A stretch of DNA of 64,000 nucleotides from positions 1-64,000 of the IMG/VR virus record IMGVR_UViG_3300033182_000769. One strand, given 5' to 3'. This document shows positions 5,630 through 60,518 of this stretch, piece after piece. Numbering within the stretch: the stretch's first letter is position 1; every line of letters begins with the position of its first letter. Below the pieces are notes generated by a model. It was not told the DNA's origin, ran no database searches, and saw only the letters and a list, made by a program, of their open reading frames with translations. The DNA is from a virus. A program made the translations under genes and the position numbers.

Positions 5630-6682
5630 ATGTACTATTTTGCACATCCTAAATTCATTGAAAAAAATATCCCCGACTTTGATAAAGATTTATTAAAGCT
5701 CATCTCTACATTATCTATAGATTTTAATTCTGCGATTGTCGATCGAACAGGTCATATTAACACCTGTTGTGATATTTTGTCTCCAATACCTCAAAGGACA
5801 AATACAAAAACATTTGAAGAAATTGTTAACGATCGTGCAAAAGAAATTGTCAATTACGTAATTGAAAACAGACTCGAACTTCGTCTAAAGTGGAATGCCG
5901 TCGACCTTCCAATTGTGAATACTTGTATGATAGTTGCTATTGCAGAACACATAAAAACGCTTCCTTCACCAAAGCGTCCGATGCTTCGATTTATATACGA
6001 CGAAAATGAAGAATACCAGTGGCTATCTTTTTTTGAAAACTATATATTAGAAAATAAAACTATTTTTAAAGGAGTTCAAAAAAACTACAAAAAGCATACT
6101 GGAAATCTAAATCATTTGGTAGTATACGGTAACCATGGAAGACTTTTGTCTCCGCAACCATATTTTGCCTATGCTGATCATTTAAAATCTGTAATGTTTA
6201 ATGATGTCTGTGATAACTGGGTTTGGTCTTATATAAAACCTATTGTTAATAAGATGCCCAACTCGTTAGGAGACAAAACTGTACCTGCTGTTATGACTTG
6301 GTTAGATTTTGTACTGTCGTGGCAGTGGAATTCGTTTCGTTCATGGATAAAAGTTCCAAGACCAGACATTGATCAAAAACACAATATGTCCTTTTATGAC
6401 ACAGAAGCATTTCAGAATTGGTTTTTAAACTCGTCGCTTGAGGATATGAATCCAGGTTTATCGCCAACCACAACGGCGTGGCCTTGCAGAGAATATATAA
6501 GAAAATATTTTAATGATAGTGTGTTAGACCAAGAAGAGGGATTTTTGTCAGAAGAGTATTTAGAAAAAATTAACACTTCAAAATTATCACAAAAAGACGA
6601 CAGTCCGTTAATTAGGACCGGAGTGCATGGCACGTATGAAACATTTGCTATTGACACCAAGTTTACAAGGTACACAATATGA
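5630..6682 (+). CDS. Degenerate sister of the PP-loop protein, unknown function
   Basis: A 350-residue protein with no family I can name directly. Its C-terminal region resembles the next gene's product: FYDTEAFQNWF (residues 255-265) matches FYDTPEFNIWS there, and both lie about 95 residues from the C-terminus. By position, VVYGNHGRLLS (164-174) would correspond to the neighbour's IISGGSGDEIFAG, and RFIYDENEEY (about 120) to its SGGIDST loop, but the ATP-binding residues are absent. I infer an inactive or re-purposed paralogue that may form a heteromer with its neighbour. It overlaps that gene by ATGA, so equal translation is likely. Confidence 0.6.
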   Translation: MYYFAHPKFIEKNIPDFDKDLLKLISTLSIDFNSAIVDRTGHINTCCDILSPIPQRTNTKTFEEIVNDRAKEIVNYVIENRLELRLKWNAVDLPIVNTCMIVAIAEHIKTLPSPKRPMLRFIYDENEEYQWLSFFENYILENKTIFKGVQKNYKKHTGNLNHLVVYGNHGRLLSPQPYFAYADHLKSVMFNDVCDNWVWSYIKPIVNKMPNSLGDKTVPAVMTWLDFVLSWQWNSFRSWIKVPRPDIDQKHNMSFYDTEAFQNWFLNSSLEDMNPGLSPTTTAWPCREYIRKYFNDSVLDQEEGFLSEEYLEKINTSKLSQKDDSPLIRTGVHGTYETFAIDTKFTRYTI

Positions 6683-31726: not shown

Positions 31727-31734
31727 TATTTATT
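31727..31734 (-). promoter_or_regulatory. T4-type late promoter motif
   Basis: On the minus strand AATAAATA, 26 bases before the ATG at 31701 and overlapping the end of gp7. It may drive the virion protein and the fibre genes. Confidence 0.45.
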
Positions 31735-34700
31735 CGGGTAGTTTCGATGTCTTATCTGCAATGAATTTAGCAATTGCAGATTTGTTTTCTAACAGAGTTT
31801 CGCCGGTTGTCGCTGTCTCAGATCCTCTATCATACCACGTTTTTCCTGATCGTGAAATAATCAGTATTCTTGTTCCTGCAGGTGGCGGCTCTGTTAATCT
31901 AATGTATTCGTCGGTGCCATTAACACTAAATTGGGCTTCTACTTCTATGTCGCCCTGTGGACTTGTTGCGCCTAAATCTTCGTGATAAACACTCATAGGT
32001 GCTTTTCTTAACCTACTTCCGCCTGCAAATACTTCAAGAGTATCGCACTGTCCGTATTCTGCAGGAATAGTATCTCTATGCCAGTTAGAAATATTACTCT
32101 TTGTTGGAACAAATCCAAGAGGTCCAATTAGCGTACTGCTGCCGTCGCTATAGAAATCATATCTTTCCTGGGTCTCTTTATAAGGAAGTGTTTCTGATAC
32201 ACCACCATTTGTAACTAATGTTCCAACTTTTGATATATCTTTAATTGCTGTTCCAAATGCACCACGTCTTAACTGTGAAAGAATATTTCCAGTTTTCTGC
32301 ATATATTCGATCTTCTCGTTATTAATAATAACAACGCCCGGTTGGTTCTTACTCGGGACAGGATCATCTAACTCTGTAGCATCGTTGACTTCAATTGTCA
32401 AGTCATAATAAAGTAAATCTTTAGCAAGCTCTACGTCTGCTGCAGAATAACGTTTATAATGGTAAACATTTAACATATCCTTTTGAATCTCAAATGCACT
32501 TGGAAGTCTGTAAATTTTAGATCCAAAAACTACTGTTTTAATTAAATCAGTGTCTACACTATCAACTAACAAATAAACTACGTTCTTACCCCTGTCTACA
32601 GAATAATCAATATCCTGAGTCAAACGTTCTCCATTTTTATACACCCATACATATGAAACATCTAATGGAGTTCTTGCTAATTGATAGAAGACTTTACCAC
32701 CGGTAGTTTCGTCGGAGATCATATCCATAGATGGATACTCGCCAAACCAAATAATTGATATTTCATCACCTAAGTTCATGTTAACATTGTCGTGAATTAG
32801 AATGTTGTTACCAAATAACTCAAACTCAGCTCTAAAGTTATTTTCAATCTTAATACTGTCGCCGACAGTTACCGCTGTTTCTTCAATCGTTAATTCTTTA
32901 GTTGTACCATCATATACATAGTCTTGAATAAATGTTAATCTTTCATTATTAACAAACACTTTAATGTTTTCAGGAAGTATTGCGCCAGGTGCTTCGTACG
33001 GATCGTTACCGAGTGTAAATTTACGGTTAGTGCCGTCATATACTTCAAAAATAGTATCCGGACCTTGTAATGCTCTGCCATTAACTTCAGCAATAATTGA
33101 CGAAAGTGCAGATCCTCTCGACAAGTCAACAAACGTGTCAATATCAACACTTCGTGTACTACCTTCATACTGTGTAACTTGTTGTCCAACCCTAACAATA
33201 GATTGCTGACTTGAATCAACATCTAATGCTGCTCCCAAACAAACAATTTTAATTGCTGCAAGATTTGGGGGATTCTCTGCAAACTGTACTAAAGTCTTAT
33301 CTACAGCATCAGTAACATCTGTACTATTAATAAAACCAGCATCAACTGATACACCATTAACTGTAACAAATACAGATGATGTTTTATCATATGGTGCATT
33401 TGTCTGGAATAACGAAGTGTCACCGTCTGCTTCAAACTTTTGATAGTCTAATATTTCAATACCGCCAATATTTACTGATAGTATTTCGATTACCTCGCCT
33501 TCAAGTGGAGCATTTACTAATACAATTCTATTTGTATTCAAATCAACATCATAATCTGTATTAAGAACCTGTTGAACTTTATTAACGTAAACCATTACAG
33601 ATTTACTTTCTAAAATATTTTGACCTACTTCATACTCTCTTGTTGAGCCGTCTGACAATATTGTCTTAGATTTTAATGCAGCCGTGCCATAGATTGAACT
33701 ATGGAATACTTTAATACTAACACTATCAAGAACTTGCCCTGGAACGTTTTCTTCCGGAGACTGTATTTGATCTGGACTAATGAACTTATCGCCGTCGACA
33801 ACAATCTCTTCAGATGTTTTACCAGTAGCGGTACTATATGCGCCGCTCATTGTAGAAAGTGTACCGCCCGATACTCGAGCGTCAATCAAGTTAGGGTCTG
33901 TAATAGTTACAGAACCATCCGACTCTTCTGGTCTAAATATTAAAATATCACCGGGATCTGTTTGGACATACTGGCCAATTTCAATTACAGCAGTAGAACC
34001 GTCACCTATAAAGGTTGGCATTTGAGCGTGTGGGTTGGTTGTTGAAGTACTATCCCAGTTATCGCTATAAGCAGGATCGTCAATTCTTAAAATAGGAGTA
34101 TCATCGATGCCTTCATCCCACTGTAAATCATTAATTGACGGAGGAGAAGTTCTTCTATATTTTTTCAAATAGATTGTAATTATCTTTCCATCTAACGGTA
34201 TATATGGCAATGTTACAAACGTTGTACTACCGTCACAAATAACATAGTAATCACTTGCTGCATCAACACTATCCCATCCATCAGTAAACCAAGGCAAAGC
34301 GTCCCAACCGCCAGTTACTTCAAATGTTGTACCTTGAACTTGTACTCCGCCAAAGTCGATGCCAGTCATTAATTGACCTAACTCTTTACCTTTCATTCCT
34401 GATGACGGATTATAGTACTTGTCTATTCTATTAACGCTATCTAATATCTGATCGTTTTTCTCGTAAAAAATTTCAATCACATCTCCTTTTACAGGAGCAA
34501 TATTAAATTTTAAATTTCCTTCAAGCATACTGTAACCAGTATTTGTAGACAAAGAGTACAAATTAATTGTATACTCGCTACTTAAAACAACCTGTCCATT
34601 ATTAGTAATAACAATTTTACTTTTATCTCTTGACGGCGGATATGTTAATTTGAAAATTGCCGTTTGTCCAGTGGCGATAAATGTCTCATTGAAATTAAAT

Positions 34701-37700
34701 TCTCTATAGGTACCTTCTTTGTTTATCCTGTCAAACTTAACACCTAAATTAAATGTTCTCGCTGTAGAGTTACCTAATATTGCCACAGCGGTTGCAACTT
34801 CTGCACCGTTTGGATTTCCGCCTACTAAAGTAATTGTAGCGTATGTGTAACCTTTACCTGGTTTTGTAACCTTAATTCCGCCTACTTTACTATTTGTAAC
34901 GTATGCTATTGCCTCGGCGCCAGTGCCGTCACCTTCAATTAGCACTCTTGGTACGCTGCTATATTCGGCGCCGGATGATGAAAGTTGAATATTTGTTATT
35001 TCATAACCTTTATTATCTAACCAGAACTTCCAAGGATAATTATTAATCTCATCATTCTTCTGTGTTACAGGAATCACTGCGCCTACAGACTCAAGATATG
35101 CAGGAGGTAGATCAAAATCACTAAATGCTGTTGGAATGTCTGCTACATCTTCGTACTTACTTGTATATTTTCTAATACTCGTTCTGTACGGTTTAACCTC
35201 TTCAATGTACTGTCTAAAATAATCAAGCCCGTCGCTCTTATAATTTGTTCTGCGACAGAAACAACCAACTGTGTGGGTTGCATTTAAGAAACTTGTTTTA
35301 AATACCCAATCAATATATGTCTGTTCTGCTAATGCATATCGAATTGATGTAAAGAATAACTCATTCCACTTGATTTCGTATTCGTGTAAGAACACATCCT
35401 CTTTAAGTGCCGCTAAAAGAAAACGTAATTCTTTTGAATTCTCAATATCATACAACCCTGTATCAAACGACTTTGCATTATCGTAACCAATACCAGACAA
35501 TGACGAATCGTAAATTGCCGGAAGTATTTCAATAGTTCCTTGATATCGTCCGACTAACGAATAATTATCAAACGGTGTAGTTGGCGATTCTGCAATTTTT
35601 TCAAATACTGCCCATCCACCTGCGCCATATTCTTTAATTTTAATCAAATCACCAACTTTGGTCTTAATTTTGGCTTCATCTGATACAAACATTAATTCCT
35701 TTGTAATACGAGAAGAATTGTTGTAGCCGGCTTTCCACCAATCTTTAAACTGCCAGTATCGTGTAGTATCGTATGCTTGTGAACGTGTCCTATAAAACGT
35801 TTGTCTTGCTGAATCCCAAGCATAAATTCCCCAAAAACCATTTGAGTTTTCGTCTGCTTCAACAAGAACGCTAAACGGTCTTACTTTTGCTCTTGCTACA
35901 GAGTATTTTTTACCGGATGTTATCACAGTTACGCTATTAATTCTTCCTTGATTGTCAATAGTTAACTCTGCAGACGCTCCTGAACCATCACCTTCCCACT
36001 CGATCTGAGGTGCAACTTTGTATCCATATCCAGGATTAATAATATCAATGCTGGTTACTGCACCATCAATAATATTAACTCTTAAAATTGCTTGTCTAAC
36101 ACGAGTTGTACCAACAGTTTGTAAATCAATATAAGACGGGACAACCGTATCATAATTTCTCAATAACGGGTCTGGTGCTTGTTCTACCTGATTTAAATTA
36201 TCAAAACTAATAGTATTTGCAAACGGCTGCTCCATTAATATTACATTAACCTTATCAACAAGCATTTCTAACAATGGCAGTCGATTAACAAACATACTTT
36301 GTCTTGGTCTAAAGGCTAACCCATATTTTTGTTTGGCAGGTAAGTATGGATCTGGTACTGTATTGCCTTCTTTATCGTAACCGGCTAAACTATCAATCCA
36401 TTTTTCTTCTAATTTACCAGTAGGTCTGCTTTCTGCAATGCCTTCAGTTAATAACTGATACTCGTTATGAATATTATTTTCCGATTCTATATTCTTATAC
36501 AATTGAATATTCAATAACGCGGTATCATTCTGCATAATAGAATTAATATTGTAAGTAAAAATCTTATCGCTATCTGCTAATACTGCAAATACATAACCTT
36601 GGCCTGCAGGATCATTAATAGCATTTGCCACCTGAGCTGCGGATATTCTGCGACCTACAACGTCTTGAGGTACTACTACGGTGTTCTTAACCCAATAGTA
36701 GTACATTCTACCAATTACTGCTCCTGTTTGAGGATTATACGTCTCTTTAACACTATAAACAATATTATCAATATTTTTTGGCGTTCCTGAAATTCCTTCT
36801 GCTAAACCTTCAGTAATGTCAGCAAGCCCGTACCACTCGCTTGGTAATAGAGGAGACTCAACCCACTCGTAAACGTCAATGACTGAGCCTTCGGCCTGTG
36901 TATTCCAATTACCTAATCTATAAGACAAATCGCCTTGTTCGTAATGTAGCCATTTAACAGTGCTTAAATCCCACCATAACTGACCAACATTTTTAGTTGT
37001 CCATGCAGTGTCTGCATCAACATTTACATCGTCAGTTCCAACTGTATAAGTTGCTGGGTCGTACGGTGTCTGGAATCGTATTTCTTGATCTGCTGCTCGA
37101 AGAATACGCATTTTAACAGGATCTATTATTTCAATGTCTTGTATTTTAATGTTATCTACGTTATCATACAATTCAATACTCTTAATTTTATCAATCCAAA
37201 CAAGCGGCTTCTTGCTTTCCATAGTAGCCCACGAGTTAACTGTTAAACTCTTCTTAAATGTTCTTACGGTACCTGTTTCGGAGCCATACTCGAGTACATT
37301 TTCGTCATCTCTATCTCTGTAAGTAGGAGAGCCTACTGCAATTACGGAGTCTGAGCAATCAACACTCCATCCGAATGATTCATTAAGGCTGAGGTTGTCT
37401 TCTAATTTTTCAGTTAAGAAATACTTATTTCCACGTAACTCAAATACATAAACACTTCCAGCAAAGCCAGCCTCACTAATAAACGATGTTCTCTCTTCGT
37501 CGAATGAGGTATTAAACCCATCAAAGCGTGTTATTGATGTGTAAGGAGTATTGTTCGCTCCAATAACAATCCTACCCGACGTTGGGCTAATAGAAACACT
37601 TTGTCCAAAATACTCGCTTGGGAACTGTTCGTAACTTTCAATCTTTTGTTTTAGTCTAAACTGCATAAACGAACTATCTGATTCGTATTTAAAGATGTAT

Positions 37701-40700
37701 GCAGAGCCTTGATTTTGATAGTTAATATCTGCTTTAGGACTTGAAACAATAAACGTTGTTCCAGAAAAGTCGATATCTAACGAATGTCCAAATCTATCAC
37801 CTGAGTTTATTGATTCTCCTTCTACATCGCTAATATCATCTAAACTATCAGTAGTAATAGTTTGTTCTAACGCATAGAATCCAAAATCGTTACGTCTATA
37901 AACAAAAACTTTACCTGCTTCTACTCTTGTACTATCGCCAATCTCCTCCCAAGGCATTCCGCCCGGCTCTTGATTATAACTTGTTGCTACGCCTTCGGAT
38001 AATCTTTGATATGTAGTATCGTACGCAACGACATCGCCTTCTTTATATTCTAAGTCTGGTCTCCATACTCCTCTAAAGTTTGGAAAATGCTGACCGTCTG
38101 CTTTAGGTGCGCTAACCAATAGAACCGATCCGTCATAGTTCATTTTAACTCGTGTACCAAACTCATCGCCATACTTGAGTAGTTCGGATAATTGGTTGTC
38201 GTCTAATACACCAGACATTAATGTAGATCCGTCGTCGTGTATTGATAAACTATGTGGCAACGAATTCTGAGTTGCCACAGGATCCATTGGCACCCAGTCA
38301 ACCGGTGCCGCACTAATTAAATTATCGTAATCATTACTGTATAAATCTTTTGCGGCATAGTAAGTTTGCTCTTCCCAATAAACAACGCTACCTTTCGGAT
38401 AGAACGATACTGCCATAACTTCTGTTGTGATTGGCGGAACTTCTTGGTTAAGTATGTATACTCCATTTCCTTTTGTCGCACCACTATATTGAGAAATAAT
38501 AGTAGTGCCATCTGTAACGCCAGGTCCTGATAAAATCATACCTAACTCTATTGAGTCAATTGTTGAATCTGTGCCTAATTCCTCAACTGTTACTGATGGT
38601 GTTCCATCTGGCATTGTAGCAAACGTGCCTGTAAAATAGGCGCCGGGATTATAAATTCCTTTATAATTTTTATTTTCTTTAAAATGCCACTTAATAGCAG
38701 TATTGTAATCAAACAAATAAACTCGACCAGTATTTTCTACTGCGCCAATTGCTGACACTGCCATTGTGTAACCCGTTGATGTTTTAGATAATGTTATATC
38801 CGAACCAAAGAATTCGTTGTTAGTAGGTCTTGGACTTACAATATTATATCTGTGATTCCATTGTTCTTCTGCATATTCATACAACATAACCACACCCTGC
38901 TGAGTGTATCCTGATTTGGTTGCTGTTTCGTAAGATTCTATAACTGTTGCTACTGCCCAGTCTTCACTATACACGTTGATTGAACTTCCGTCGCCTGTAA
39001 TATCTCGTTGTGCCTTCCAAAGTTTTCCATCGTAGTAAACAATGTCGCCTTCTGCATAATATAATTCAGGATCGAATGGTCCTTGGAAGTAGGTTCTCAT
39101 ATCACTTGCTTTAGGGGCACCTACTGCTAACCACTTGTTGTCTGGACTTAGTGCCATTGATAGTCCAAATGATCCTAACATCTTAGAAGTATACCCCGAC
39201 GGCGGCGCAATGATCTGCTTCATTTCCAACCCGCCTCTGATATCAATATAACTCATCACAAAGCCTGATCCTGGCATTGAAACTAAAGTGTTAGTTGTAG
39301 TTGAATTATATAAGACCTTGTAGCCTACTTGTTTTGGGTCAGTAATTCCAAAATCAGTTATATTGGTTGGTTCGTATTGCTTTTGCTTCTTCACAACCTC
39401 CCAGAGACCATTTCCGTTATTGTCTATAAACAATTTAGAGCCGTTCTTTAAGATTGCAGATGCCTCTTCTGGTACATCATCGTATGATGCAAATCGTGCA
39501 GTATCTAACCTATACAGTGTTGTATAAGAACTGTCTTCAATTTCAGGTTCCAACGTTCCTTTTTCAACAGCAATTACAATAGAAAATTTTCCATCAACAA
39601 CAGGTGTACTTAAAACTTTAAAGAATCCATTGATATTAGTTACGCTTTTAATACCAATAATTTCCCCAGCGGTAATAGAGTGGGGCTTGTTCATTTGTAA
39701 AGTTACAGAAATCTTATCATCGTTTAATGCTGCATGAGATACCAACAAGTCTTCTGCCAGGCGAACTCTTAGAACAGTCCACTCGTACCCTTCTTCAAAT
39801 GTTACCCAAATATGATCGTTGTCATATACAGAATTAATATTAATATCTAAAATATCATCACGTCTGGCAACTGCCCAGTCGACTTGCGATAACTTAACGT
39901 ACCCTGCGGTTAAATTTTCTTCAACTTCACTCGATGTTGGGATTATATCTGTAGTGAATGGAATTTGTTTAATTGTAAAATTAGACTCAGGTACTCTATA
40001 GATCTTATCAAAATAATTACCAGATGCATCTTTTACAATTTGTACAGGCTGAGGATTTAGTTCAAAGTTTTCTTTATAAATCTCAACTTCAATTTCTTGG
40101 TGTTGATCTACTCCACCTAACTGTCCAACGCGGAATGCCCATTCTTCGTGCAACGCAACTGCTCCGCCGGCGCTTCTAACACTTAACTTATCAAATACTT
40201 TAGAAACAGAATTAGGAGTTCCCTTTTCTCTAATAAATCCTTGATATAGTTGGAATTGTGTTACGGGATCTTCTGCAAGATTTTCTAAATAGTTTCTCTG
40301 TTGGTAACCAATAGTGTGTCTTGCCAGATCTCTCTGAGACTGGCTTATTCCATCTGTAGACACATCGTAAAAATCTTCAAACTCGTTGATTTTAAAATCA
40401 AAGTTTGGAAGCAACTGTCTTTGCGGATCAGAATCTAATAACGTCCAATTACGTTCACTGAAATTTTCAGTTCCTGTATGATTAAATCTCGAAGTCCAGT
40501 ACTTTGATTTATGCGAAACAATATCGCCTAATCTATAATCTGTATATGGAGACCACGATGCAATGTTAACATTGTCAAAGATAAAGCCCGGTGATGTATA
40601 ATCACCATCCCAGTCTGATGTTCTATAACCTTGCGTTTTAATTCTATCTTGTCTATATCCAGTTTCTTTATTATAAATTACATCGTTAAATACCGACTTG

Positions 40701-43700
40701 TGATCAAAAACTGCCACGTGCTCTTTTAACACATAATAGAATTTAATAAAATATAAACCTTCAGTTGTGTTTGTAGTAGAAATAGTAACTTTCTTAAAAT
40801 CTCTTTTAACATCAATCAACTTTGGATCCAGTGGTTGGCCGTCGCCACGCAATATATTATATTGATAAAAACTATCTAATAAGTTATCTGCAACACCAAC
40901 TTCTATGTTGATCTGCGCAACTTGGGCTGCCGGACTGATTGTGATAATTGAATTATTTGCCCAGTTGTGGCTGGTCCAAAACATAAACTCTTTTGCTGCC
41001 GAAATAAAGTCTTGAGCTACTTTATTTTCATAATCATAGTTTTCAAATACGAATCCTTCTCCTTTTAGATATTGTTCGTATCCTAACATAAAATCAACTA
41101 CATCTTGAATATTTGTAAGTTTCTGACCGTAGCTCAAACGCTGAACCTGAGTTTTGTCAAAAGTTCTACGCCTAAATGCTTCAATCGCTCCCCTTAGAGG
41201 CAACTTAGCAAGTTTTTGCCATTTATTAGTTTCAAATGTTTCTGTTTGATGCGTTTCTAATGCCCTATAATAATCTTGTCTGTACTGTACAATAATACCG
41301 TTATTATACTTCTTATTGCTTGTCCATACAGTAAAGCCTTCACTTACGCCGCCAACGCTTAGTAACGGATCTTTTTGACTTGGCACTGGCTTATAATAAT
41401 TAAACCATGGTTGAATATCATCGTACCCGTTAATAGTCCAGCCGCCAGTTATCTTTGTGATAACCAAACCGCTATAAGTAACACTCTTGATAGGCGCACT
41501 AACATTAAAAATTACATCATAGTTTTCATAAGGAATGTAGATGCTACTATTTGACGCTGACGGGTTTTTACTATCTAACAAATATCTTTGTTTTTCTTTA
41601 TCTACGAATCCTGATAATCTTGTAGATAACATAACATCTGTGTTTAAAATTCTATCTTTAATCTCTTGGACATTGAGCCCATTAGATTTTAAGTAAGCGG
41701 TTAAGTAATTAATCAATCCGCTTGAAAGTGTCTCACCGGCTTTAGGAACATCAAACGTGTCTTTCGTTTGGAACATATTAGTTTCTATGTCAACTAACTG
41801 TCCTGCTAAGTTTCTTGTTGTTGTAGCTCTATTAAGATTCGATGTAATAAAATCAAAAGGACGTAATAATGCCATTGCAGTAGTTATTGCATACGGAAAT
41901 TCAGAACTTGTTCTCCAGGCATACTCTGCCGGAGATATATCGCCAAGTTTAAAACTACCTTGGTTATTAATAAGAGTAAAGTTAGTAACCATACCCGAAT
42001 CTAATGGACTTACTACATTTCCATCATAATCGACTGGGATATACGATGTTAATCCTGGTCTCTTATAACGATCGTATGTGCCTGCTCTGTGCCCGTGTCT
42101 AACAATACCATCTTCTAAGTCTTGCCATAACACTAAGTTACCCTTTGTATAAGGTGCTTTACCGTATTCTTCATCCCACCAGTCGGGCTTCTCTGAAAAC
42201 CCTAACATTTCCCAAGGAGTTAAATTAGGACGAGTTGTGTCATAGAACCAGTCGTAAACACCTCTCCACCAACCTGGCAGGTTAACTTTTGACGCAGGGT
42301 CTGTCATGTTTGAATATGTATATGTGAAACTATTTTCACTATCAAAGTATTCATTAATGGTGTAGTTGATATTAGTATTATTAACCCACTTTAAAAACTC
42401 TTGACTTACAATGTCATCAAGGTCTTGCTTGTCATATAGTCCTTTATAATAATACCCTCCAACTACTTCGTCGTTATCAAATACTTCTACATTATATTCT
42501 ACTTTAATATTATTATAAATTCTATATTCTAATTCTAATAATATATCGTCTCGATAATCACCATACGCTGATACTAAACTACCGTCGTGCCCTTGTATCA
42601 TATTCCTTGGCTCGATGTAAGTGTTATCTGCATACATCATTGGTGTATACTTTTTATACATTCCTAATTTTGTTGGCGTCGGAGGGATATGACAAAATGC
42701 TGTAGATCCGTATTCTCTAATTTGAATTGTATCAAATTCTGCCAAGTCAATAGTAAGTGTAATGAAGCCAAATGTGGCATTAAATGTATAATCTCTGTTA
42801 TGTAATAACTGTTTTCCGTTATGATAAACATAAACAGCACGTCGACTTAGTTCTGTAAGATCAAACTTTTCAGTCAGAGCAAATGTTTTTATACCTTCAT
42901 CTTCTACTACATAATCAATAGAATTATAAGCACCACTACCGATCATATCCATGTCAGCAAATGGACTTTTTATACTCTTGGCAAGAGTCATACTATTCAT
43001 AATTTCATCCACAAAATCTGGAATGTTTTCATTGAATTCTAACTCAAGTGCTCTGGATAAAAAGTTGTTCTTAAATGTAACATAGGCCTGTTTTGCATAC
43101 TGAATTGCCTTTACAACACTATCAGTTTTACTACAAAGCATATTAACAGAGATTGGTGTTAAACCAGCGTGTTTCATAAAACGCTTTGAATGTTGCCGAT
43201 AATCACCCAAGTCTCTTAAATTTGAGTTTCCTGGCAATTTTCCAACAAACTCGTCATTAAACTCTAAAGCAGACGCAATGTGATCAGTTGCTTGCCCTAA
43301 TGTAAAACTTGTTAAACTGTCGTTCAGCGGGTTTTTTTCTAATCCTACAGGAAATTCATAATATCCATCTTCAGGATCTACATCTCCAATAATTTTAACA
43401 CTAACTACATCGTTTTCAACAAACGTTGTACTATCAAACGTAAAAGTATTTCTAACTCTTGTATAAGTGTCATGGAGCCTTTCGCCATTAAGATAAAAAT
43501 TAATCTTCCTATTAGGATCTTTATCTAACTCGTCCCAGTCGACAGAAAATAAAGTTGCTCCTGATGTTTCACGAATTAATACAGTGCTATCAAGAATAGG
43601 TTGAATAAAATCGTTACTCGTTCTTATCCAGCCGTTCTGATACTCGTTCTCCATTTTATAGAAGCCAGTAGCAACTTTCTTAGAATACTCTTTTTGCAAT

Positions 43701-45709
43701 ATCGTCCAGTTAACTGTATCAGTATCCCAGTTCCAGTTAAACTCAATATCTCCTACATTATTAATGTTAAGATAACTTAAAGGAAATCCTAACTCAGAAT
43801 CATTAGGTCCATTACCTTCTTTGTAACTTACTAACTTTGATCCTTTAAATGTACTACTTGGATATGTTTCTTCATTGCTAAAACTTACACCATCGTTATC
43901 AAATACATCATATAATGGTGGTTGATTAACTTTAGTCTTTTCTTGACTTTTAACCCAATGCGTTCCGTCAAAGTGATACATTTTTCCAGCATTTTCATTT
44001 CCACGTTTTATAAGAACACACTCACCAATCGTTGAAGTTGAATCTTCAACTTCTTTTAGATTGATGGTTCTTTTATTGTTATGAGTTATGAAATTTACTT
44101 CGTAAATTTTATTATTTGCCAGACTATCTGTATCTGCAATAATAAGAATTCTTGCTCCTTGGAACAAATATTCGCCGTCTACATTATAACTCTTACTACC
44201 TTCAATTTTAGAAAAAGCATCTTTTGTATAGGTGTCTACGTAATCTACAGGGGCCTTTGCTACAGATCCATGATTAAACATCTGTATGTTAGGTAAGAAT
44301 TCAATAATAGGTCTTTTTGCTCTTGCTTCTTCTGAACCTTCAAACGTTAGGCCTCTCTCGGTATAGGCTGTGTTAATAGTTGACTTATGGAACCAACGAT
44401 TGTATCGTGCCCATGGATTAGTATCTTTACTGTGTCTGGAAACAGTGATATAATCTTTGCTGTACGGAAACGCAGTAGCATCGTCAAACGGCTGTGTGTC
44501 AAATCCGTCGTTATCATATAAAATCTCAGGAGTTTCTTCTGACAACACTGGCGGTGTTAATTCATCTAAATTAATTAGTGCGATTTCGTTGCCGACACCT
44601 TCTACTAACCATTTTGATGATGCATATTTTTGAGGGCTCACTCCTCCCATAAATTCTACAACTAAACCATTTGTAAACTCTATACCATTACTTGATGTGT
44701 AGTTTTGTTTTCCGATAACTTCTTTTTCAACATCGATAAACGTGTTTTCTTCAATATCAGCAATTATAAACTTACCAAGCCTTGTTGGGTCGGCAGCACT
44801 TTGATAATATAAAATATCAGGAGCGTCTAATGGAACTTCAAAAGTAATTGTTCCTTTCTTTGCTCCGTTATTAGTAATTCCTTTAATAAAATCTAATGCA
44901 GAAGTATCTCTGGCATTAGTATCTACTAACTCCCAATCTTGGCTATTAATATCAATAGTACTGTGGTCAGCAATTTCAATGGTTCTCAATGCTTTCCATA
45001 GTTCCCCGTCAAATACAGCAAGGTCGCCTTCAAAGTAAGCACGGCCTGGATTAAATAACAAAGAACCTGTATCGTAATTTTTTCTAATTACAAACCCTTC
45101 AGTAGAGTTTACTTTAAATTCGTAAGTTTGGCCTCTATATAAAATAAGATCCGGGTTATCAGTATATCCATCTGGTGTAAAGATCCAACTTGAAACTGTT
45201 CCTGCTTTGACTTTATATGTACTTAGAACTTCTTGTGTTTGGCCTTTAACGGAAACCGGAACTGGTCCTAACGGTAGCCAATAGTATTCGCGATAGTTTA
45301 CAAACTTATCCCAGTCAATCGGAGGGCTCCATGAATAGTGTTCTTGGAAATTTAATTTATCGTCTCTGTCGGAATTACTACCAAAGAATTTAAGTTGACT
45401 TTTTAAATCTAAATAATCGCTAAACGATACAATATTATTATTTTCATCTTTAATAACAACACCAGGCTCTAACTGATATGCACTTCTTAATGTGTTATCA
45501 GTATCGAGATACGTGCTTTGTCCATTGTACGTTTTTCCGTAACGACGACCAATATAACCAACAGTGCGTTCAAGCTCTCCGGGTTGTATTAATGGGTCAA
45601 ATGTTCCTGCAAAAAACTTCTCATTTGCAGGTGTCTTAAATACCGTAGGTAAAAAGTCTACTGTTCGTCTAATAGGTAATCCACTTTGTGGAAAAGACTT
45701 ATCTTCCAT
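31730..45709 (-). CDS. gp7: Baseplate wedge initiator gp7 (very large)
   Basis: A single uninterrupted 4659-residue frame, far larger than T4 gp7 (about 1030). The N-terminus (GLPIRRTVDFLPTVFKTPAN, then FFAGTFDPLIQPGELERTVG and VNYREYYWLPLGPVP) matches the gp7-like baseplate wedge proteins of T4-like marine phages. About residues 2180-2810 hold repeated SFGLSMALSPDNKWLAVGAP-type units ('FG.sv.is.....vvGaP'), an FG-GAP-like beta-propeller. The C-terminal half has repeated 'F.l...P.d...v.VY.NG......DY.v....i.....P..GD.I.I' sandwich modules. The start overlaps the gp6 stop by one base. It should link wedge and tail fibres; the propeller may be an extra adhesion or fibre-docking part. Confidence 0.88.
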   Translation of the reverse strand: MEDKSFPQSGLPIRRTVDFLPTVFKTPANEKFFAGTFDPLIQPGELERTVGYIGRRYGKTYNGQSTYLDTDNTLRSAYQLEPGVVIKDENNNIVSFSDYLDLKSQLKFFGSNSDRDDKLNFQEHYSWSPPIDWDKFVNYREYYWLPLGPVPVSVKGQTQEVLSTYKVKAGTVSSWIFTPDGYTDNPDLILYRGQTYEFKVNSTEGFVIRKNYDTGSLLFNPGRAYFEGDLAVFDGELWKALRTIEIADHSTIDINSQDWELVDTNARDTSALDFIKGITNNGAKKGTITFEVPLDAPDILYYQSAADPTRLGKFIIADIEENTFIDVEKEVIGKQNYTSSNGIEFTNGLVVEFMGGVSPQKYASSKWLVEGVGNEIALINLDELTPPVLSEETPEILYDNDGFDTQPFDDATAFPYSKDYITVSRHSKDTNPWARYNRWFHKSTINTAYTERGLTFEGSEEARAKRPIIEFLPNIQMFNHGSVAKAPVDYVDTYTKDAFSKIEGSKSYNVDGEYLFQGARILIIADTDSLANNKIYEVNFITHNNKRTINLKEVEDSTSTIGECVLIKRGNENAGKMYHFDGTHWVKSQEKTKVNQPPLYDVFDNDGVSFSNEETYPSSTFKGSKLVSYKEGNGPNDSELGFPLSYLNINNVGDIEFNWNWDTDTVNWTILQKEYSKKVATGFYKMENEYQNGWIRTSNDFIQPILDSTVLIRETSGATLFSVDWDELDKDPNRKINFYLNGERLHDTYTRVRNTFTFDSTTFVENDVVSVKIIGDVDPEDGYYEFPVGLEKNPLNDSLTSFTLGQATDHIASALEFNDEFVGKLPGNSNLRDLGDYRQHSKRFMKHAGLTPISVNMLCSKTDSVVKAIQYAKQAYVTFKNNFLSRALELEFNENIPDFVDEIMNSMTLAKSIKSPFADMDMIGSGAYNSIDYVVEDEGIKTFALTEKFDLTELSRRAVYVYHNGKQLLHNRDYTFNATFGFITLTIDLAEFDTIQIREYGSTAFCHIPPTPTKLGMYKKYTPMMYADNTYIEPRNMIQGHDGSLVSAYGDYRDDILLELEYRIYNNIKVEYNVEVFDNDEVVGGYYYKGLYDKQDLDDIVSQEFLKWVNNTNINYTINEYFDSENSFTYTYSNMTDPASKVNLPGWWRGVYDWFYDTTRPNLTPWEMLGFSEKPDWWDEEYGKAPYTKGNLVLWQDLEDGIVRHGHRAGTYDRYKRPGLTSYIPVDYDGNVVSPLDSGMVTNFTLINNQGSFKLGDISPAEYAWRTSSEFPYAITTAMALLRPFDFITSNLNRATTTRNLAGQLVDIETNMFQTKDTFDVPKAGETLSSGLINYLTAYLKSNGLNVQEIKDRILNTDVMLSTRLSGFVDKEKQRYLLDSKNPSASNSSIYIPYENYDVIFNVSAPIKSVTYSGLVITKITGGWTINGYDDIQPWFNYYKPVPSQKDPLLSVGGVSEGFTVWTSNKKYNNGIIVQYRQDYYRALETHQTETFETNKWQKLAKLPLRGAIEAFRRRTFDKTQVQRLSYGQKLTNIQDVVDFMLGYEQYLKGEGFVFENYDYENKVAQDFISAAKEFMFWTSHNWANNSIITISPAAQVAQINIEVGVADNLLDSFYQYNILRGDGQPLDPKLIDVKRDFKKVTISTTNTTEGLYFIKFYYVLKEHVAVFDHKSVFNDVIYNKETGYRQDRIKTQGYRTSDWDGDYTSPGFIFDNVNIASWSPYTDYRLGDIVSHKSKYWTSRFNHTGTENFSERNWTLLDSDPQRQLLPNFDFKINEFEDFYDVSTDGISQSQRDLARHTIGYQQRNYLENLAEDPVTQFQLYQGFIREKGTPNSVSKVFDKLSVRSAGGAVALHEEWAFRVGQLGGVDQHQEIEVEIYKENFELNPQPVQIVKDASGNYFDKIYRVPESNFTIKQIPFTTDIIPTSSEVEENLTAGYVKLSQVDWAVARRDDILDININSVYDNDHIWVTFEEGYEWTVLRVRLAEDLLVSHAALNDDKISVTLQMNKPHSITAGEIIGIKSVTNINGFFKVLSTPVVDGKFSIVIAVEKGTLEPEIEDSSYTTLYRLDTARFASYDDVPEEASAILKNGSKLFIDNNGNGLWEVVKKQKQYEPTNITDFGITDPKQVGYKVLYNSTTTNTLVSMPGSGFVMSYIDIRGGLEMKQIIAPPSGYTSKMLGSFGLSMALSPDNKWLAVGAPKASDMRTYFQGPFDPELYYAEGDIVYYDGKLWKAQRDITGDGSSINVYSEDWAVATVIESYETATKSGYTQQGVVMLYEYAEEQWNHRYNIVSPRPTNNEFFGSDITLSKTSTGYTMAVSAIGAVENTGRVYLFDYNTAIKWHFKENKNYKGIYNPGAYFTGTFATMPDGTPSVTVEELGTDSTIDSIELGMILSGPGVTDGTTIISQYSGATKGNGVYILNQEVPPITTEVMAVSFYPKGSVVYWEEQTYYAAKDLYSNDYDNLISAAPVDWVPMDPVATQNSLPHSLSIHDDGSTLMSGVLDDNQLSELLKYGDEFGTRVKMNYDGSVLLVSAPKADGQHFPNFRGVWRPDLEYKEGDVVAYDTTYQRLSEGVATSYNQEPGGMPWEEIGDSTRVEAGKVFVYRRNDFGFYALEQTITTDSLDDISDVEGESINSGDRFGHSLDIDFSGTTFIVSSPKADINYQNQGSAYIFKYESDSSFMQFRLKQKIESYEQFPSEYFGQSVSISPTSGRIVIGANNTPYTSITRFDGFNTSFDEERTSFISEAGFAGSVYVFELRGNKYFLTEKLEDNLSLNESFGWSVDCSDSVIAVGSPTYRDRDDENVLEYGSETGTVRTFKKSLTVNSWATMESKKPLVWIDKIKSIELYDNVDNIKIQDIEIIDPVKMRILRAADQEIRFQTPYDPATYTVGTDDVNVDADTAWTTKNVGQLWWDLSTVKWLHYEQGDLSYRLGNWNTQAEGSVIDVYEWVESPLLPSEWYGLADITEGLAEGISGTPKNIDNIVYSVKETYNPQTGAVIGRMYYYWVKNTVVVPQDVVGRRISAAQVANAINDPAGQGYVFAVLADSDKIFTYNINSIMQNDTALLNIQLYKNIESENNIHNEYQLLTEGIAESRPTGKLEEKWIDSLAGYDKEGNTVPDPYLPAKQKYGLAFRPRQSMFVNRLPLLEMLVDKVNVILMEQPFANTISFDNLNQVEQAPDPLLRNYDTVVPSYIDLQTVGTTRVRQAILRVNIIDGAVTSIDIINPGYGYKVAPQIEWEGDGSGASAELTIDNQGRINSVTVITSGKKYSVARAKVRPFSVLVEADENSNGFWGIYAWDSARQTFYRTRSQAYDTTRYWQFKDWWKAGYNNSSRITKELMFVSDEAKIKTKVGDLIKIKEYGAGGWAVFEKIAESPTTPFDNYSLVGRYQGTIEILPAIYDSSLSGIGYDNAKSFDTGLYDIENSKELRFLLAALKEDVFLHEYEIKWNELFFTSIRYALAEQTYIDWVFKTSFLNATHTVGCFCRRTNYKSDGLDYFRQYIEEVKPYRTSIRKYTSKYEDVADIPTAFSDFDLPPAYLESVGAVIPVTQKNDEINNYPWKFWLDNKGYEITNIQLSSSGAEYSSVPRVLIEGDGTGAEAIAYVTNSKVGGIKVTKPGKGYTYATITLVGGNPNGAEVATAVAILGNSTARTFNLGVKFDRINKEGTYREFNFNETFIATGQTAIFKLTYPPSRDKSKIVITNNGQVVLSSEYTINLYSLSTNTGYSMLEGNLKFNIAPVKGDVIEIFYEKNDQILDSVNRIDKYYNPSSGMKGKELGQLMTGIDFGGVQVQGTTFEVTGGWDALPWFTDGWDSVDAASDYYVICDGSTTFVTLPYIPLDGKIITIYLKKYRRTSPPSINDLQWDEGIDDTPILRIDDPAYSDNWDSTSTTNPHAQMPTFIGDGSTAVIEIGQYVQTDPGDILIFRPEESDGSVTITDPNLIDARVSGGTLSTMSGAYSTATGKTSEEIVVDGDKFISPDQIQSPEENVPGQVLDSVSIKVFHSSIYGTAALKSKTILSDGSTREYEVGQNILESKSVMVYVNKVQQVLNTDYDVDLNTNRIVLVNAPLEGEVIEILSVNIGGIEILDYQKFEADGDTSLFQTNAPYDKTSSVFVTVNGVSVDAGFINSTDVTDAVDKTLVQFAENPPNLAAIKIVCLGAALDVDSSQQSIVRVGQQVTQYEGSTRSVDIDTFVDLSRGSALSSIIAEVNGRALQGPDTIFEVYDGTNRKFTLGNDPYEAPGAILPENIKVFVNNERLTFIQDYVYDGTTKELTIEETAVTVGDSIKIENNFRAEFELFGNNILIHDNVNMNLGDEISIIWFGEYPSMDMISDETTGGKVFYQLARTPLDVSYVWVYKNGERLTQDIDYSVDRGKNVVYLLVDSVDTDLIKTVVFGSKIYRLPSAFEIQKDMLNVYHYKRYSAADVELAKDLLYYDLTIEVNDATELDDPVPSKNQPGVVIINNEKIEYMQKTGNILSQLRRGAFGTAIKDISKVGTLVTNGGVSETLPYKETQERYDFYSDGSSTLIGPLGFVPTKSNISNWHRDTIPAEYGQCDTLEVFAGGSRLRKAPMSVYHEDLGATSPQGDIEVEAQFSVNGTDEYIRLTEPPPAGTRILIISRSGKTWYDRGSETATTGETLLENKSAIAKFIADKTSKLPE

Positions 45710-59465: not shown

Positions 59466-59921
59466 ATGCATTGGACCCACGAAGGCAAAATAGTAGACTC
59501 GATTTCCGACGAATACGAAGGTTTCGTCTATCTCATAACAAATCTAAAAACCGGGCAAAAATATATAGGCAAAAAACTTGCTAAATTTAAAACTACTAAA
59601 CCACCACTCAAAGGACGAAAAAACAAACGTCGAGGCACAAAAGAAAGCGATTGGAAAACCTATTGGGGTTCTTCAGATCGTTTAAACGCAGATGTCCAAG
59701 CATTAGGCCCGGAAAACTTTACCAGAGAAATACTTTATTTTTGCAAAAACAAGGCAGAGATGTCCTACATAGAGGCAAGAGAACAGTTTGACCGCCGTGT
59801 ATTAGAAACAGATGATTATTATAACGGTATTATAGCAGTGAAAGTAGGCGGTTCAGATAAACTTAGAAAAGCACTTTTAGAACAATCAATCAAACAAAAG
59901 GCAAAAAACACTACCAAATAA
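59466..59921 (+). CDS. GIY-YIG endonuclease-like protein
   Basis: A 151-residue protein with a GIY-YIG domain: GFVYLITNLKTGQKYIGKKL (about residues 19-38; 'VYLI...YIGKK'), followed by a basic segment (LKGRKNKRRGTKESDWKTYW) and an EAREQFDRRVL helix with the metal-binding Glu. The Arg in the central helix region could complete the site. T4-like phages carry similar Seg-type enzymes, some homing, some repair or segregation factors. It directly precedes the structured noncoding region, and no disrupted gene flanks it. It could be free-standing and homing is not shown. Confidence 0.8.
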   Translation: MHWTHEGKIVDSISDEYEGFVYLITNLKTGQKYIGKKLAKFKTTKPPLKGRKNKRRGTKESDWKTYWGSSDRLNADVQALGPENFTREILYFCKNKAEMSYIEAREQFDRRVLETDDYYNGIIAVKVGGSDKLRKALLEQSIKQKAKNTTK

Positions 59922-60189
59922 GCCCGCACCGGCGCAGTTATGGTGCCCTGAATCCCTTCTGATGTGAGAGGGTAAGGAATCTGGTTGGTAGCAGAGAACT
60001 CAGCCACTACCCGTAATGGATGAGGATCGCTTAAACCCTGCGATTTGGCTGTTTGATAGGAATGTTAAAAGGTAAAAAGAGAGTAGAGAATACTCAGGCT
60101 TATTATAGAAGTCAGCGTTTTTATAATAAGTTGCCGTTGTACGTAAGATACGAGGACGGGTTGAGCAGGTAACGGACAACCGCCTGCGC

Positions 60190-60253
60190 AATGTGCAATA
60201 ATTTGCACATTATAGTACAAAAAGTACATTAATGTGCATATTTTTGCACATTA
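60190..60253 (+). repeat. Inverted and direct TGCACATT repeats
   Basis: Two hairpins with the same arms: AATGTGCAA/TTGCACATT (60190-60211, loop TAAT) and AATGTGCA/TGCACATT (60231-60252, extendable by T/A). Between them is a GTAC/GTAC hairpin. The 14 bases TTTGCACATTATAG occur directly at 60202-60215 and 60243-60256, 41 bases apart. The repeats could bind a dimeric protein or form a regulatory RNA module. Confidence 0.7.
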
Positions 60254-60460
60254 TAGACCTAACGCTGTTGTGAACTGGGGAACACAGATAATGTTCAAAA
60301 CCCTTTGAGCCCGGCAACGGGCTTATTGTGACTGAAGAATCAAGATAATGCTAAAACTGCTTCGCAGTTAATATTTCTCCCACATAAAACATTTCACATC
60401 TTGCACATCTTGCTAATTATTAGAGAAGAGAAAGTGGCGCTTGAGCAAAGCGAAAAGCGC

Positions 60461-60482
60461 AAGCGAGCTTTAGCTCGCTTTT
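60461..60482 (+). terminator. Rho-independent terminator-like hairpin
   Basis: Perfect 8-base stem AAGCGAGC / GCTCGCTT with a TTTA loop, followed by TT; the stem also ends in TT, giving a short U-run. It closes the noncoding region and lies just before the late promoter motif at 60485. Confidence 0.75.
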
Positions 60483-60484
60483 AA

Positions 60485-60492
60485 AATAAATA
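60485..60492 (+). promoter_or_regulatory. T4-type late promoter motif
   Basis: AATAAATA, one mismatch from TATAAATA, directly after the terminator and 26 bases before the first 'MRI' gene. It fits late expression of the virion-internal candidates. Confidence 0.55.
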
Positions 60493-60518
60493 ACACATAT
60501 GTTAGGAACACTTTAATA

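Follow-up and report, generated by a model that had tools for sequence, protein, structure and literature searches.

Why does a compact phage genome keep a long stretch without a recognizable gene? The question is raised by a 64,000-nucleotide (nt) stretch of the virus record IMGVR_UViG_3300033182_000769 (the window; the complete record comprises 160,009 bases), in which a gap at positions 59922–60518 extends from the stop codon of a gene for a GIY-YIG protein (59921) to the next ATG (60519). Open reading frames (ORFs) within this gap are chance ORFs only, the longest of 63 amino acids, in agreement with an initial annotation that had seen no supportable ORF here. Its description of a compact genome with gaps mostly below 50 bases is likewise supported, as the apparent gaps that were checked, at 7.9–10.2 kb of the window, are occupied by small ORFs.

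The gap carries an RNA module made up of a swappable 5′ domain (here the Rfam family RF01718), hairpins, an H-type pseudoknot, a 3′ domain with two identical 6-nt direct repeats (tags) and terminal hairpins. The position of this module is fixed, downstream of SbcC-like and SegE-type GIY-YIG genes in uncultured T4-like phages. Based on the sequences, we suggest, at about even chances, that it represents a stand-alone large structured phage RNA, the two tags of which would bind one trans partner, with the RNA serving as a scaffold or decoy.

Fold and conservation of the RNA

The gap has a predicted minimum free energy of −178.5 kcal/mol, compared to −142.8 ± 6.4 kcal/mol for 100 shuffled sequences (z −5.6). 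Much of this excess is supplied by an A+T-rich hairpin at 60190–60252 (z −6.2), which varies among relatives, while the stability of the first 134 nt is ordinary (z −0.2), so that the number of hairpins alone constitutes weak evidence. The strong evidence for an RNA is conservation and covariation among relatives. RNAs of the window class were located by a degenerate pattern together with the neighboring gene, and the same 5′ domain was found at loci L017/L205, L030, L033, L074, L206, L207 and L208/L209. We aligned seven sequences over the part beyond RF01718, excluding the variable hairpin. The alignment supports three hairpins (60081–60095, 60099–60130 and 60307–60324) as well as the H-type pseudoknot, with 96.7% of cells paired, compared to 79.2% in shuffled and 37–48% in slid controls. 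The compensatory changes that had been proposed as a check were indeed found: 17 of the 31 pairs changed on both sides in a compensating manner. The covariation score of 0.516 (0.170 shuffled, at most 0.155 slid) was equaled in none of 500 shuffles. As the structure was drawn partly from the same sequences, the slid control alone would be flattering; the shuffles agree with it. Covariation and the deeply conserved position thus back the earlier proposal of a structured phage RNA. The elements of the window RNA are as follows:

59922–60482, + strand: entire phage RNA, about 560 nt (5′ end placed by conservation, 3′ end by the terminator)
59921–60054, + strand: 5′ domain, RF01718 Polynucleobacter-1 (78.1 bits, gathering cut-off 37, model 1–141 of 141)
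60081–60095, + strand: hairpin 1, GAGTA/TACTC (two-sided changes in 4 of 5 pairs)
60099–60130, + strand: hairpin 2, CTTATTATA/TATAATAAG (two-sided changes in 8 of 9 pairs)
60136–60140, + strand: pseudoknot helix A, 5′ strand GTTGT (partner 60176–60180 ACAAC; 100% paired in 7 relatives, two-sided changes)
60165–60169, + strand: pseudoknot helix B, 5′ strand GCAGG (partner 60183–60187 CCTGC; cells with letters 100% paired)
60176–60180, + strand: pseudoknot helix A, 3′ strand ACAAC (partner 60136–60140; covariation)
60183–60187, + strand: pseudoknot helix B, 3′ strand CCTGC (partner 60165–60169; covariation)
60190–60252, + strand: long A+T-rich variable hairpin (altered or absent in relatives)
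60286–60291, + strand: direct repeat copy 1, AGATAA (repeat identity)
60307–60324, + strand: 3′-domain hairpin with GCAA loop, between both repeats (covariation)
60343–60348, + strand: direct repeat copy 2, AGATAA (repeat identity)
60355–60369, + strand: UUCG hairpin
60437–60460, + strand: terminal hairpin with inner GAGC-AAA-GCGA motif (conserved among relatives)
60461–60482, + strand: terminator-like hairpin AAGCGAGC-TTTA-GCTCGCTT followed by T (equivalent hairpin in relatives)

The GNRA-like and UUC loops noted in the initial annotation correspond to GCAA at 60314–60317 and to the UUCG loop within 60355–60369, and the terminator it placed at the end of the region is present as the terminator-like hairpin. 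In all classes of the RNA, the inner part of the terminal hairpin reads GAGC-GNNA-GCGA, consistent with tandem G·A pairs; L088 and L100 exhibit a C-G to U-A change in this hairpin. Long A+T-rich hairpins with TGTGCA..TGCACA-like arms differ in position between phages or are absent (60190–60252 in the window; near 5680–5790 in L035), and look as though they were inserting and moving inside the RNA.

In a cmscan search of the 64-kb window against Rfam 15, RF01718 was the sole match. One stem of the alignment holds several non-standard pairs. The cut-off was also passed by L017, L030, L033, L074, L206, L207 and L209. The initial annotation could not match the region to known RNA families by eye, but a match exists for its first 134 nt, which cover the full 141-nt model. 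The covariance search thus gave a clear family match for this part only; the family is uncharacterized and the rest of the RNA is left unexplained. The remainder of the gap gave no credible Rfam match, yet 60055–60482, outside the model, is conserved and covarying. RF01718 is only the 5′ quarter of a larger RNA; the model lacks the 3′ 430 nt with the pseudoknot core and the paired repeats, and most relatives of the whole RNA bear another 5′ domain that RF01718 does not match. The family stems from a 2010 survey of 104 candidate RNAs, where it was reported from Burkholderiales and from fresh water or estuary samples as probably cis-regulatory and without known function (Weinberg et al. 2010, PMC2864571). 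In the open-access literature, with subscription journals outside the search, we found RF01718 only in that paper and no paper on the large RNA.

A wider family in uncultured phages

SegE-type GIY-YIG relatives number at least 597 in viral contigs. When the window was pooled with 80 close GIY-YIG loci from viral contigs, 54 of the loci had 450 nt or more of downstream sequence; in 50 of these we found the core sequence GTCGACGTAGGTTGGGAAAGGTCAGAGCCC, either complete or as its best-conserved stretch. The other four are the window, L017 and L030, which are of the RF01718 type, and the divergent L064; at L032, a coding-like insert precedes the RNA. A large group of uncultured phages has an RNA of about 350–600 nt in the slot behind the SegE-type GIY-YIG gene, and hundreds of uncultured aquatic phage contigs carry the module. 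The GIY-YIG gene lies upstream in 165 core-bearing loci; the remaining nine have 267 nt or less of upstream sequence. At L104, L116, L217, L223 and L225, a small gene intervenes between the GIY-YIG gene and the RNA, and the RNA begins at the same motif. It thereby keeps its own 5′ boundary, which argues that it is a unit of its own. Small genes in this position also occur at L226, L249, L255, L260 and L273, and several of the ten encode C-x2-C pairs (e.g. VCNTCN).

Across the family, several types of 5′ domain are swapped between phages, while the hairpin, core, 3′ domain and terminal hairpins persist. Of 62 diverse members of the core class, 53 can form a long-range helix with their own partner strand, compared to 22% for foreign strands, with 13 distinct stems. 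For the hairpin stem that precedes it, the contrast is weak, as stems are often shared (55 of 62 own, 56% foreign; 15 distinct stems). By our comparison, the pseudoknot formed by the long-range helix and GTAGG/CCTAC matches that of the window class in topology, GTAGG/CCTAC being almost invariant in the core class and hence outside the covariation test there. The core class has no Rfam match, including in two relatives scanned up to E 5.

Neither the window RNA nor the core RNA had a DNA match in cultured phages (for the core class, none in 50,697 phage records), and neither RF01718 nor the 3′ model was found in phage Melnitz. A comparable gap behind GIY-YIG relatives is absent in the cultured phages checked (Melnitz, cyanophages, Sinorhizobium and Rhizobium phages). 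In bacterial genomes, the RF01718-like pattern was not found, and the core pattern was confined to two phage-like contigs assigned to the same Neomarinimicrobiota bin; these contigs, L210 and L211 (PBPT01000016.1 and PBPT01000082.1), bear near-identical RNAs.

A 3′-domain model built from the core class, mostly sequence with 9 pairs, matched L064 (E 0.0008), L206 (0.006), L030 (0.012), L209 (0.12), the window (0.21) and L017 (0.39), each match being full-length and located where expected. We therefore regard a common origin of the window and core classes as likely but not proven, given the shared position, pseudoknot topology, GAGC..GCGA terminal hairpin, terminator and repeat rule (see below), and the stronger matches of sister RNAs.

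Two direct repeats that change in concert

The 3′ domain contains two 6-nt direct repeats, 54–69 nt apart and preceded by ACTC and ATCT, with the consensus RNRURA. The two copies are identical in all 110 distinct 3′ domains, though their sequence varies between phages. A prospective test selected RNAs solely by an unusual copy 2; all 38 new distinct RNAs obtained in this way had an identical copy 1, while a foreign 6-mer occurred in the same stretch in 0.5%. All seven window-type RNAs keep the rule as well (AGATAA, AGATGA, GCATAA, GAATAA). Position 8 is free, so that the boundary of the repeat is sharp. By parsimony on the GIY-YIG tree, the repeat type changed at least 27 times.

Pairing of the repeats in cis was rejected as an explanation, as a repeat's own complement in the RNA is no more common than foreign ones and no alignment column besides the two copies tracks repeat type at positions 1 and 3. 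Copies that are identical but not complementary suggest that selection keeps them alike, and on the simplest reading one trans partner would have to read both copies. Two other explanations were discarded. Template jumping by a phage reverse transcriptase found no backing, with no RVT_1 in seven records, and the motif is unconvincing as a genome-wide site, with AGATAATGNT present nine times across the 160-kb record, including two occurrences inside the RNA, compared to four for a reversed control.

Possible functions and the locus

We weighed what such an RNA might do. In our preferred reading, the stand-alone RNA with a trans partner, the transcript would arise by operon read-through or from an unrecognized internal promoter, read-through being assumed because no promoter is evident. 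It would end at its own terminator, fold around the pseudoknot and present the two identical tags as a pair of sites at which one trans-acting partner, protein or nucleic acid, would bind; the specificity of this partner would differ between phage lineages. In this manner, the RNA might act as a scaffold or decoy in infection. More broadly, we propose with moderate confidence a large class of aquatic phage RNAs, unusual in principle, in which the tags match rather than pair, the same changing trans partner would read both, and both would change with its specificity; Rfam would then hold the 5′ domain of one sub-class only. Several points weigh against these suggestions. The lack of an evident promoter is one; another is that the core-class 3′ model matches the window itself only weakly (E 0.21 in a search of 143 kb). 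Furthermore, part of the switching between repeat types may stem from the transfer of entire 3′ domains and not from fresh mutation, and the repeat type may reflect a property other than binding. No candidate for the trans partner was found.

Phage origin, size and an elaborate pseudoknotted fold are also hallmarks of the GOLLD and ROOL RNAs, and a conserved 3′ part combined with a less conserved 5′ part is known from GOLLD (PMC12286853). The RNA could thus assemble into RNA-only complexes, the repeats serving assembly or cargo binding. Unlike those RNAs, however, it is shorter, has co-changing direct repeats and follows a recombination operon instead of neighboring tRNA islands. There is no Rfam match to GOLLD, ROOL or OLE, and repeats without a complement in the RNA cannot form kissing contacts between copies; we consider this proposal unlikely, though we rank it ahead of the other alternatives. 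Next, and likewise unlikely, comes the idea that both tags are sites where the adjoining GIY-YIG protein binds the RNA, is retained by it or cleaves it, the protein co-evolving with them. Two identical 6-nt sites changing in step would suit a sequence-specific nuclease or binder, and the gene was upstream in 165 of 165 loci. Yet that common position may merely reflect a conserved operon, a gene intervenes in several loci, and GIY-YIG relatives in cultured phages have no such gap behind them. The location at the end of the operon, the terminator-like hairpin and the missing promoter would also suit a structured 3′ untranslated region that protects or regulates the SbcC-like/GIY-YIG messenger. 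As the size, conservation and modularity of the RNA exceed what such a role needs, and as the repeat rule would remain unexplained, we regard this as improbable.

GIY-YIG genes are commonly intron-borne, in line with the earlier suggestion that the region is a relic of a mobile intron. That the GIY-YIG gene left behind the remains of a group I or group II intron is very improbable, as Rfam scans returned no intron family in the window (up to E 10) or in two relatives (up to E 5), no gene is split, the RNA lies between complete genes, behind the GIY-YIG gene in all classes and with a 5′ boundary of its own, and constraint this strong is unlike a relic. The regulatory RNA also envisaged is unlikely as a leader, and a cis-regulatory leader or riboswitch of the next gene was rejected, since a simple ORF rule places a convergent ORF next to the RNA in 31 of 106 distinct loci; the window's own next gene is on the same strand. 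A tRNA or tmRNA was rejected likewise, with no ARAGORN or Rfam match.

Two further systems resemble the RNA in part. Omega RNA and HEARO, which lie beside IscB-type nucleases, are likewise large structured RNAs adjoining a nuclease gene. Here, however, the nuclease has the GIY-YIG fold, which is not known to be RNA-guided, and its relatives occur without such an RNA behind them; no guide-like hypervariable end was seen in alignments of the RNA. The ToxI RNAs of type III toxin-antitoxin systems combine a pseudoknot with repeats matched to the partner protein. The window RNA also has a pseudoknot and repeats, but only two short repeats inside one large fold, and no toxin of that type was identified beside it.

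An orphan 141-nt Rfam motif thus becomes the 5′ domain of a far larger RNA, most members of which are missed by existing RNA libraries. The concerted repeats provide a sharp handle, as pull-down should be able to reveal a molecule that reads both tags, and about ten natural repeat types offer ready-made comparisons.

The gene directly 5′ of the RNA is:

59466–59921, + strand: GIY-YIG gene, SegE type (PF19835, Pfam E 9.9e-35)

PHROG 447 and many GenBank records label this GIY-YIG protein (SegE, PF19835) an "NAD synthetase", apparently a propagated misannotation. On the same strand, the genes further upstream include relatives of SbcC-like (phrog_77) and SbcD-like (phrog_100) subunits and of a late sigma factor (phrog_12791), and the source therefore looks like a T4-like phage. 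Elsewhere in the window, positions 31730–45709 on the − strand hold one ORF of 4659 amino acids, very large by phage standards.
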